Assembly (NCBI GenBank): GCA_024734495.1
Contig: JALMQS010000032.1
Span: forward strand, 620,001-684,000
Length of the DNA stretch: 64,000 nt
Source of the DNA: Forficula auricularia
Lineage: Eukaryota; Arthropoda; Insecta; Dermaptera; Forficulidae
Reading direction: 5' to 3'
Shown here: positions 35,440-41,920 of the stretch, in pieces
Layout: each line of letters opens with the position of its first letter
Numbering within the stretch: the stretch's first letter is position 1
The notes under the pieces: generated by a model
Seen by the model: the letters and a program-made list of their open reading frames with translations, nothing else
What the model was told of the DNA's origin: nothing
Databases searched by the model: none
Made by a program: the position numbers and the translations under genes

Positions 35440-35518
35440 CAAACTAAAAGAAAACCAACTTATGCGAATCCAAGCTGGTGACCCTGTTGCTCGATATTTT
35501 GGACTGAAAAGAGGACAG
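35440..35518 (+). CDS. Rpb5: RPB5 alternative exon 4a
   Basis: The acceptor TTTTTTTAG gives a 79-base exon: C completing Tyr, then [20 protein letters not shown] and GLKRGQ. This is the conserved core of the C-terminal assembly domain, which binds the largest subunit, and it is the version closest to that of Drosophila. Its donor CAG/GTACCA is good. The next recognisable exon 5 is 6.5 kb away; the intervening sequence contains exon 4b. Confidence 0.95.
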
Positions 35519-36239
35519 GTACCATTTTGTTTTTTGTTTAATTTTTTTTAAAATAAAATCAATTAGTTTTTGATGAAAAAATTGATGATTTATATGGTTA
35601 CTAAGAATTTATATATTTATTTCAGTTTAAGACATTTTTCAAATTGTGTTTGTTCTATAAACAACTGAACTGATGTAGGTGAACTTAAGGCCATCGATTC
35701 ATGTCTAAATTTATTTTATTTTATTTCCTCTTTTATACGTCGTGGTCTCTTGGACCCAGCTTCTTGCTCTGGTGAAAAGACTAACTTTACTCTCCTGTCA
35801 TCTTCATTTAGCCTTATGGTCTAAATATGAAATAAATAAATATATTTTTAGTAACTATACTCCCATTATCATAAAATAATAAATAAGTTAAGCAACCAAC
35901 TCATTAGTAAATATGACTGACTTAAATGAGTAAATTCTCTAAATAAATGGGGGTTCCGATGACACTTTACACTCCACAATCTTACATATTCTTGTTATTA
36001 TTATTTAAAGGTTTAGTCTAAAATATATACCTAGTTGTGATCTATCTGTTGACTCGTGTATTGTTGTTATTGCTTATTTTTACAAGACATTGAAAAAATT
36101 GTAATTTAAAAGATATCAAATTGTAAGTAATTTCATCTCATTATCTTTAATGTAAATAGGAAATTAATTACAATTTTCAATTAAACCAGCTTCTACTTTT
36201 AATAGCCCTTTTCATATGATGAGAGATGCTATCCTCAAT

Positions 36240-36965
36240 TATTTCAAATTGCAGAGATGATATGTATATTCTTCGATTCTAACTCACTGGAATTCAGTGA
36301 TAATGTACCAATGTTGGGCCTCACTCTGAGGTCTGACCTCTTGGAATGACCAATCACATTGCTGCTAAAGTTGTTACCTGCAAGCTTGGTTTTGTCTTCA
36401 GATCCAGACCCTACTTTACGCCCAATCAACTTATTGTCTTATATAAGGCTCACATTCGCCCCTGACTCGAATATGGCGCTCATCATTGCAGATGGACCTC
36501 CAAGTATTCTTTTGCCACGCTAGATGCAATTCAGAAGCGAGCAATTAAACTCATAGGAGACTCGGTCATATCTAACTCACTCGATTCCTTGGCTCACTGT
36601 TGAATCACCTGTCCTTTCCCTGCACTATAAGTACTACCATTATGTTTGTTCAGACGAGTTGAAATTAATAATCCCTCCTAAAGTCCTATTTGAAAGAAAA
36701 ATACGGTTTTCGAATTCTCAGCAAACACTTCGCTGACAAATAGGATAAGAATCGTACAAACGCTTTGGCCAAATCCCTATTACCTCCAGAGACTGAACCC
36801 GCTTCCTGCCACAATCTTCAGCTAGTTAATACCCGCATCCACAATTACCTTCGACTCCTACCCAGCCCATAAAATCTCTTTCTCTTCTTTTTTCTCAATG
36901 GAGGGGCCAATTCAGGCCTTTAGTGGCTGCACCTTCTTTCTTGCTATAACTCCTCGAATCAATAT
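36240..36965 (+). pseudogene. LINE (CR1/Jockey-like) 3' fragment, decayed
   Basis: Broken frames correspond to the RT C-terminus seen better at 40187 (PMLGL, LDAIQKRA-like, YKYYHYVCSDELKLIIPPK). The shared 3'UTR GGCCTTTAGTGGCTGCACC follows at 36917. Multiple stops and frameshifts. Lies in the Rpb5 intron between exons 4a and 4b. Confidence 0.8.
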
Positions 36966-37219
36966 TATTAAAAAAATTAGGTGTTCGCTATTTAAATAAT
37001 ATTTTGCATGAAATTCATTAGCTATTGTAGTTCTCGTTAAATTTTTCAACAAATTGATAAAAACTTAAGTGATTGAATAGCTTGATTTGGATTTAGGTTA
37101 TTGTGTAGATAGGAAATAATAATTTTAAGTTTTAACTTTTCTTAGATTTATTAGGACTTTTGAAATAAACCACATTATGCACTGTTTAATCTATTTATTA
37201 AAACTCTAACACATATATA

Positions 37220-38960: not shown

Positions 38961-40186
38961 TTTAACCGACTTCATTTAGTTAACAAGCCAACAACAATTA
39001 TTTTTTCTAAATATTATACATGTTATTTATTTTTTAGTAGTAAAAATAAACAAACGGTGAATTGGTACTCACAAGTCTAGTGTTCCGAACGAACCTAGTA
39101 AATGAAAAGAAACTTTCGCAGTAGATTTATATATTTCAAAGACCTTCAATATGATTTGGCACAAAAATCTTCTTGCCAAATTGGCCGTCTTTGGCCTTAT
39201 CTCTAGGGTCTGCTAGTAGTTTGCAAACTCTTTACCAAACCGTAGTATTAAAGTTGTGGTTAATGGATATAGTAATTCTTTTCCTTCTATAATAATGTAG
39301 GAATTCCAAAAAGGCCCTGTAACTCTCCCCAAATCCCTTATCTACCATATATCAATTATCTTTGAAATTTGCATTCCAATCCAATTAATTTTTACACAGA
39401 TGTCAGTATATTATATACTCTAAAACGCACAATCATTCTAAAGTTTTAAACAGGGATAGTTTCCAAACGTTAACTAAACCGTATTATTCTCTTTTTATAG
39501 CCATGTTTAATAAAACAAAATAATTGATTAGAAGTATTTCATATATCTTTGCCTTATTCTCAACTAAAATACGGACACAACAAACACGCTCGAATGTAAA
39601 CTAGAAAACAAAAGTGCTTGCACATAAATATCTATATGTAAAGAGATTTACTCAAATCTCAAACTATGTGTTAGGAATGCCTTGTAGTATCTGGTTTTGC
39701 TGTACACCAAATTTATTGCTAGTTTCTCCTCAAAACTGATTGGATAAATATTATTTCTATTGTATATTGAATTCTTAATGTCTCTTTCGATTAAACTTAA
39801 AATAAAATTGTGAAGGGATCATTCTAAAATTTTCTCGAAACTTTTCTAGATCTTCCCTCAAATAATTTTTGATGAGTTACAAGAAACAACCCTCTATCGT
39901 TTCTTGCTTTGAACATTTGATGCATTCATTTTCTGGAATATCATTTTAAGAAATATTGTTCGCCAATATCATTATCTTCCTCTTTCTCCTTTCTTAGTAA
40001 ATATGCAAGAAGAAATCTTTTCTTCATTCTCCTCATAAAATACTCGAAACTCCCGATCAAAACCAAACAATAAACTGCTGCAATAGTCACAAGAAAAGAC
40101 CTCAACCTTTTTTCTCCAGCGATTATCACTTTTCGGGAAACGATGATTTTGTTTTTAGATTCAATCTATTTAACAAATGAGTGAGA
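38961..40186. other. Rpb5 intron, no gene recognised
   Basis: Anonymous AT-rich DNA; no motif or exon recognised on either strand. Confidence 0.4.
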
Positions 40187-41145
40187 GGCAAACCCCACTC
40201 ATTGTTACGCCGACGATAGCACTCTACATCGGCAAACCCTCTCTCCCGAATAATCGAATCAATATTGCCTCCTCAATTTACTTTCGACCTAGACAAACTG
40301 AAATAAATGGGGCTCTCAAAATTTAGTTAACTTTAATTCAAATAAGACTCAATGTTGTCTAATTTCTAGGCGCGAAAATAGAGATTTCCCTGATATTCAC
40401 TTCGATTCAAATACCCTGAAAATGTGTGACAGCCTATCCATGTTGGGCGTCTCTGTCGCATCTGACCTGTCTTGGAATGAACACATCTCCTCTGTGGCGA
40501 AATCTGCAGCAAGGAAGATTGGCTTCTTATTCAGGTCCAAGCGATTTTACAAACCCCCACAACTTCTCACCATCTACAAGGCCCAAATCCGCCCCTGTCT
40601 CGAATACGGCTCTCATCTGTGGAGAGGAGCCTCAAAATATTCTCTTGCTACCCTTGATGCAATTCAGAAACGAGCCGTCAGGCTAATTGACGATTCTACC
40701 CTCACCGACTCCCTCGACTCGCTGGCTCATCGAAGAGATGTCTCTGCCCTTTCCCTTTTCTATAGATACTATCACGGCAGGTGCTCTGATGAGATAAAAT
40801 CAATAATTCCCCCCAAAGCATGCTTTGCACTGCAGCACACGTTTTGCCGACTCCCAACACTCTTTCGCGGTCAAATTGGAAAAAGTGCCGGACCACTTCA
40901 TTCGCGAATACATATATCCCCATGACTTCAAGGAACTGGAACTCTCTCCCAGCCTCTATCTTTCCCAGCACCTATGATCTTCAAACCTTCAAAACCAGGG
41001 TGCATAGACACCCCACGTCTACACCCTCTCACTTAATCAACTTCCCTTCTCTTCGGTAATGCAGGATCTTTCGTGATCCATAGGGGCTACATCTTTACTG
41101 GTGCACCCCTTCTTGCATTCGATTGCATTAAAAAAAAAAAAAAAA
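40187..41145 (+). pseudogene. LINE (CR1/Jockey-like) reverse transcriptase C-terminal half
   Basis: HCYADDSTL at 40200-40226 is the catalytic YADD box of reverse transcriptase. FNSNKTQCCLISRR, LSMLGVSVASDLSWNEHI, LDAIQKRAVRLI and, after a frameshift near 40850-40900, TSRNWNSLPASIFPSTYDLQ follow in the usual order for this LINE group. A stop lies after the YADD box, so it is inactive. The 3'UTR ends GATTGCATT and poly-A at 41130-41145. It is the best-preserved of four copies (13200, 36240, 40187, 52345), located just upstream of Rpb5 exon 4b. Confidence 0.9.
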
Positions 41146-41841
41146 GTGGTTTATATGTTAGTAAAATCATTTATTATTTAGATCTTATAAAATAAATAAA
41201 TGGAATATACCTGTGTTTAAAAATAAAAATGATTCTAAATATATTATTTTACACATCAAGGGCTTATTGCAACAACATGATAAGCCACAAATCTGAAAAC
41301 CTAAGATAAGTCTTAAGTTTTAAAAAAATCTATAAAATTAAATAGTTCAGATTTTTGGTACCAATTATTTTTAATGTATGCTTTTTAGATTCTTAACAGC
41401 TCTTGTTGATAAAAGCAGAAGAATGAAGTATATTTTTACAAAAAATGTTTTATTAAAAATTATGTAGGTTGTCATGTTATTCCAATAAGCTCTTCAAATA
41501 CTTATTTATTATTCTTTTTTTGTACACGATGAATTTGAACTTTTAAATTAATCATACCTATTATTTGGAAACAAGACATTTAAATAACTGTTAGTTTCCA
41601 TTAAATCAAATAATATCCAATCATTTTAAATTAATATTTTACTTAATTCAAAGATTTCATTTTTGTGTTTTTTCTTTAAAATAATTTTAATCAATTGCCG
41701 ATTTTCCCTTTATTACCTCTCATAATCCATAATTTATAATAATTTTGTTTTTTACTATTTTAATTGTTCATTTTTTTAAAGAATTTTTATTAAAAGATAA
41801 AATTTGTTGTGAGAATATATGAATTCTTCAACATTAATAAG
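41146..41841. other. Rpb5 intron upstream of exon 4b
   Basis: AT-rich; no repeat recognised. If exon choice is regulated by intronic elements or RNA pairing, they could lie here or next to exon 4a. Confidence 0.4.
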
Positions 41842-41920
41842 CAATTTACGTGAAAATCATTTACCGCGTATTCAAACTGGGGATCCAATTTGTCGTTATT
41901 TTGGCCTTCGCCGAGGCCAG
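41842..41920 (+). CDS. Rpb5: RPB5 alternative exon 4b
   Basis: This second version of the same exon is also 79 bases and in identical phase: C, then [20 protein letters not shown] and GLRRGQ. It is identical to 4a at 18 of 26 residues. Of those 18 shared codons, 13 differ at silent positions, so the duplication is old and the protein has been conserved. The donor CAG/GTAAAC is strong; the acceptor ATTAATAAG has a weak pyrimidine tract. Using both exons would shift the frame (158 bases), so they should be mutually exclusive. A 77-base intron leads to exon 5. Confidence 0.9.

Follow-up and report, generated by a model that had tools for sequence, protein, structure and literature searches.

A probable pair of ancient mutually exclusive exons in the insect RPB5 gene, with a predicted U12-type choice between them

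A window of 64,000 nt from Forficula auricularia (contig JALMQS010000032.1, 620,001-684,000; positions given here are counted within the window) contains a full gene for RPB5 (RPABC1), a core subunit common to the three nuclear RNA polymerases. The gene lies on the + strand and was resolved by tblastn and translation into six coding exons, two of which, 4a and 4b, are versions of the same exon (Table 1). The two very probably form an ancient mutually exclusive exon pair of the single RPB5 gene in the window, and the splice signals suggest a U12-type choice made by the minor spliceosome. We predict with good confidence that Forficula makes two RPB5 proteins of 211 residues each, which differ in 8 residues of the C-terminal assembly domain.

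The 161 residues encoded by exons 3, 4a and 5 aligned over the full query to the best RPB5 chains in the PDB (best E value 6.1e-97). The complete 211-residue frame contains an N-terminal jaw and a C-terminal assembly domain, both with conserved sequence, as expected of an RPB5 orthologue. When each exon was searched separately by tblastn within the window, exons 1, 2, 3 and 5 gave one strong match each and exon 4 alone gave two. The corresponding introns measure 116 nt (exons 3 to 4a), 6,518 nt (3 to 4b), 6,479 nt (4a to 5) and 77 nt (4b to 5).

Exons 4a and 4b have the same length of 79 bases, begin and end in the same phases and differ at 28 of the 79 bases. Each encodes a 26-residue segment of the assembly domain, with 18 residues identical and 8 different; silent differences are present in 13 of the 18 codons for shared residues. 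By Nei-Gojobori counts the proportion of nonsynonymous differences (pN) is 0.23 and that of synonymous differences (pS) 0.76, the latter being saturated. Neutral divergence was simulated by placing 28 random changes in 4a. None of 100,000 such copies both retained 18 of the 26 residues and stayed free of stops; 76% acquired a stop codon, and among the stop-free copies the mean identity was 9.8 residues and the highest 17. An origin of exon 4b as a chance open reading frame was rejected on the basis of these simulations, and strong constraint on the pair at the protein level is apparent from the codon pattern.

Translation of all four possible messages showed which of them stay open. Messages 3-4a-5 and 3-4b-5 each encode 211 residues. 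The message containing both exons, 3-4a-4b-5, reaches a stop three codons into 4b (QFT*), and the message containing neither stops at the exon 3/5 junction, so exactly one exon 4 is needed. The pair thus has two of the properties expected of mutually exclusive exons: the exons are adjacent homologs of equal length class and phase, and their joint inclusion or joint skipping is non-productive. A preliminary description of this DNA had reported the two copies with their length, phases and 8 differences, and had deduced selection on the protein from the silent changes and a forced either/or choice from the shift in frame. The sequence observations were borne out by the exon map and by the codon counts and simulations, and the either/or choice is supported by the translated messages. 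It had also noted that the residues LREN and LPRIQ of 4b occur in vertebrates; indeed, the human protein reads KLRENQLPRIQ.

Exon 4b is no local oddity, as protein matches from other insects show. Three protein searches together listed 280 proteins (the best 120 of 578 matches, the best 120 of 598, and all 89 matches of a short-protein search). With the region around 4b as query, the top three of the best 120 of 578 matches were a protein of Ladona fulva (Odonata; 98 bits), isoform X2 of Anabrus simplex (Orthoptera; 76 bits) and isoform X2 of Lycorma delicatula (Hemiptera; 72 bits), with the remainder at 67 bits or below. The Ladona model contains both 4a (residues 164-189) and 4b (residues 206-231) in one protein, separated by 16 residues of apparent intron. 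Six residues were taken as diagnostic of 4b: N1, P8, T12, I16, C/S17 and R23. A total of 279 exon-4 stretches were found in 278 of the 280 listed proteins, and five carried 5 or 6 of the six residues: the three above and the fragments P0133 and P0195, which were added by the short-protein search. The next best of the listed proteins, P0041 and P0163, carried 4. Two isoforms of one species are only ∼4% apart in a database clustered at 90% identity; many 4b isoforms may therefore be concealed, and nothing can be concluded from the absence of a species from the matches.

Fragment P0133 is identical to the 4b of the window at 26 of 26 residues. Its upstream flank resembles that of the window, which may mean that P0133 comes from a close relative, and its downstream flank is different. 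In the eight codons leading up to 4b (41820-41842) the window reads MNSSTLIS and P0133 reads MNSSTIIS, the intron flank with the branch site being alike in both.

The exon-4 duplication probably predates the split between dragonflies and Neoptera, which lies ∼400 million years in the past. Window 4a and Ladona 4a are identical at 26 of 26 residues, and window 4b and Ladona 4b at 22 of 26; by comparison, 4a and 4b agree at 19 of 26 residues within Ladona and at 18 of 26 within the window. Six 4b rows share 21-26 residues with one another and 16-20 with the 19 other rows. The 4b rows clustered together in a tree (support 73/93; recovered in 72% of 200 bootstrap trees; none of 500 label shuffles as low), and it is this grouping together with the like-to-like similarity across Ladona and the window that points to the early date.

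There is a hint of still greater age. A fragment from the springtail Allacma, P0161, and the second exon of P0004, from a 6-kb contig, have P8 in common with 4b, though without T12, I16 and C/S17. In P0004 two pieces resembling exon 4 share an open frame at a distance of 103 codons, an RPB5 exon-4 duplication that is possibly an older or an independent case. The potential for a U12 branch site was at most 7/9 in the P0004 intron and 5/9 in P0161. A hybrid query for a springtail-type 4b returned only Ladona above the ordinary level, and no new full-length relative, among the best 120 of 598 matches. If they are of 4b type, these two cases would place the duplication further back, although they lack most of the 4b residues.

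The splice sites around exon 4 point to a minor-spliceosome intron. The exon-3 donor, TA/GTATCCTTT, matches the U12 consensus at 9 of 9 positions and the U2 consensus at 4 of 9, and it begins with the RTATCCTT expected of a U12-type donor. GTATCCTTT occurs once in the 64 kb on both strands, with 0.81 occurrences expected by chance and at least one found in 56 of 100 shuffles; the weight of the match therefore lies in its exact placement at the exon-3 donor. For exon 4a the candidate branch site TGCCTTAAC is close to the consensus TTCCTTRAC (8/9), a score equalled or bettered by 0.36% of the + strand AGs in the window. By contrast, the acceptors of exons 2, 3 and 5 have U12 branch-site matches of at best 6/9. 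U12 branch sites are spaced ∼10-20 nt from the exon; the branch A lies 14 nt before 4a and, in the imperfect candidate site TTCTTCAAC, 11 nt before 4b (Table 1). In Ladona the read-through piece of intron ends in TSLTILS, which, to judge from the protein letters, is compatible with a perfect branch site TTCCTTAAC (9/9) at 11 nt; among controls, none of 356 stretches matched in length and 1 of 621 shorter stretches allowed such a site. The flank of P0133 allows 8/9 at 11 nt, which is weak, since a match of at least 8 was also allowed by 41 of the 621 controls of its length.

The donors of the two exons 4 appear to belong to the other class. In GT-AG introns, U12 donors are reported to lack AG at positions -2/-1 and to be impaired by it (PMC10853781). 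Both 4a and 4b have AG there, as expected of U2 donors, and exon 3 has TA. The 4a and 4b donors and the exon-5 acceptor thus look U2-type, and the U12 likeness of the 4a donor is in our judgment outweighed by its missing TATCC core and the preceding AG. Mouse Polr2e has been named among the genes with an affected U12 intron (PMC7312986). The U12 intron of RPB5 may consequently be of old origin, on the presumption that the mouse intron is the same one.

We propose the following mechanism. The minor spliceosome would join the one U12 donor of exon 3 to the U12-type acceptor either of 4a (116 nt away) or of 4b (6.5 kb away), and the U2-type donor of the chosen exon would then be joined to exon 5 by the major spliceosome. 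Joining 4a to 4b would pair a U2 donor with a U12 acceptor and would be disfavored. With incompatible classes at this junction, the either/or exclusion is probably built in through the splice sites themselves. The order and speed of splicing should also matter, since early removal of the 77-nt intron between 4b and 5 would cut 4a off from exon 5 and leave 4b as the only choice; for the 4a form, 4a would have to be joined to 5 first.

Several observations weigh against this interpretation. The support for it consists of sequence and splice signals. GTATCCTTT is expected ∼0.8 times per window by chance; the 4b branch site TTCTTCAAC matches at just 7 of 9 positions, and 3.4% of the + strand AGs in the window equal or better it. 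The 4a donor scores 7/9 against the U12 consensus and 6/9 against the U2 consensus, and the 4b donor scores 7/9 against the latter. Intron 2 as assembled has no canonical donor. The single-copy status of RPB5 is established within the 64-kb window, the isoform X2 labels of Anabrus and Lycorma are NCBI model predictions, and the tree was built from 26 columns, with none of its forks strongly supported.

The most serious alternative is that both exons are true alternatives, with exclusion due not to U12/U2 incompatibility but to nonsense-mediated decay of messages containing both, to competing RNA structures or to regulated repression. Messages with both exons do stop at once, and the branch site of 4b is imperfect. 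Moreover, among human clusters of mutually exclusive exons 60% are reported to have exon lengths not divisible by three, and 0.79% to show U2/U12 incompatibility (PMC5740500). Against it stand the perfect U12 donor of exon 3, with its poor U2 score; the U12-like branch sites of both exon-4 acceptors, compared with 6/9 at best for exons 2, 3 and 5; and the AG that precedes the 4a and 4b donors, in place of which exon 3 has TA. We consider this alternative unlikely but not negligible.

That 4b is a conserved exon no longer or hardly used in Forficula, a relic that happens still to be open, is considerably less probable. The case for its use in this species is drawn from sequence, its branch site is weaker than that of 4a, and the pyrimidine fraction before the exon is lower (0.59 for 4b vs 0.71 for 4a). 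Yet its silent sites are saturated relative to 4a, its frame is intact and its residues are common across orders; P0133 has the same 26 residues with a different downstream flank, although the similar upstream flank may indicate a close relative. Least credible of all is the explanation that 4b and exon 5 are left over from another RPB5 copy, now broken, or that the tandem is an assembly artifact. The interval between 4a and 4b does contain pieces that by eye resemble transposons (the single frame from it that was tested had no Pfam match), and the copy number of RPB5 is known for the window only. A separate pseudogene or second gene is nevertheless disfavored by the single occurrence of exons 1, 2, 3 and 5 in the window, and an artifact by the occurrence of 4b in relatives, with both exons in one gene model of Ladona and 4b in isoform X2 of Anabrus and Lycorma. 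The preliminary description had named absence of 4b from relatives and derivation from a separate RPB5 pseudogene as grounds for abandoning the either/or choice. The presence of 4b in three insect orders answers the former in the negative, the exon counts in the window make the latter unlikely, and the case for the choice is further strengthened by the stops in wrong combinations and by splice-site classes that disfavor a 4a-4b join.

Dscam and nAChR alpha6 of insects likewise have mutually exclusive exons that are homologous alternatives, used one per message. These are cell-surface and receptor genes, unlike RPB5, which encodes a universal subunit of a core enzyme. The closest parallel in splicing is found in exons 6a and 6b of JNK (MAPK8/9), which are described as an exclusive pair with U12 and U2 site classes involved in the choice (PMC8329584, PMC3584512). 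There the competing sites are two U2 acceptors and two U12 donors (PMC8329584). RPB5 would be the mirror image, with one U12 donor and two U12-like acceptors followed by two U2 donors and one U2 acceptor, such that the first choice would be made within the minor spliceosome. According to one review, alternative splicing with U12 introns appears "almost entirely absent"; alternative 3' splice sites are noted there, their meaning being unclear (PMC3584512). Two versions of RPB5 in one organism are also described for plants (NRPE5 of Pol V) and trypanosomes (RPB5z) (PMC6690254, PMC8721170). However, those variants are separate genes that arose by duplication, whereas the insect case concerns one gene, with a single 26-residue segment exchanged by splicing.

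The exchanged segment lies in the assembly domain. An AlphaFold2 model of the X2 isoform from Lycorma predicts, with modest confidence, a helix at residues 178-183, within which the I16 and C17 changes fall. The model was made for secondary structure only and has a mean predicted local distance difference test score (pLDDT) of 80, with 74-77 over exon 4. We speculate that the two isoforms differ in their assembly-domain contacts, perhaps favoring a particular polymerase, tissue or stage. A bolder scheme, which we regard as possible but on balance doubtful, is that insects have for some 400 million years built two RPB5 isoforms, with the minor spliceosome choosing between two U12 acceptors that follow a single U12 donor. 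The differences would lie at the contact of RPB5 with the largest subunits of Pol I, II and III and would yield functionally distinct polymerases, whose own composition would be subject to feedback from low minor-spliceosome activity or from slow transcription. A deeply conserved choice of assembly-domain version would let insects alter the core polymerase itself by splicing. RPB5 would also be a naturally occurring example in which spliceosome class enforces exclusion and the minor spliceosome makes the choice. No account of alternative RPB5 exons in animals was found in the open-access literature, as covered by titles and the openings of abstracts, with subscription papers mostly outside. 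As far as we have seen, exon 4b is already recorded as NCBI isoform X2 in two insects but is apparently undescribed in print.

Table 1. Exons and splice signals of the RPB5 gene in the window. A slash marks an exon/intron boundary.
Feature	Position	Strand	Remarks
Exon 1, coding part from ATG	30018..30077	+	tblastn and translation; donor CAA/GTAAGT, U2-type
Exon 2	30147..30235	+	tblastn and translation; donor as assembled TG, not GT
Exon 3	34982..35323	+	tblastn and translation
U12-type 5' splice site GTATCCTTT of exon 3	35324..35332	+	TA (not AG) at -2/-1; 9/9 to RTATCCTTT
U12-like branch site TGCCTTAAC for exon 4a	35419..35427	+	8/9; branch A 14 nt before exon
Exon 4a	35440..35518	+	26-residue segment; donor CAG/GTACCA
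U12-like branch site TTCTTCAAC for exon 4b	41824..41832	+	7/9; branch A 11 nt before exon
Exon 4b	41842..41920	+	26-residue segment; donor CAG/GTAAAC
Exon 5, coding part and stop	41998..42063	+	acceptor apparently U2-type, with pyrimidine tract; single copy in window

Intron 2 (30235-34982) runs as assembled from CCAAG/TGTAAA to CAG/TGAAAA, so that the frame is kept only with a TG..AG intron or with an assembly error of one base close to the donor. Rfam and ARAGORN gave no match in the window. The frames at 31080-31625, 40302-40922 and 43652-44161 resemble pieces of retroelements by eye, with no match in Pfam. Transposase-like pieces at 43143-43532 and 2207-2512 were matched by Pfam to a hAT dimerization region and a Mos1-type helix-turn-helix, respectively.

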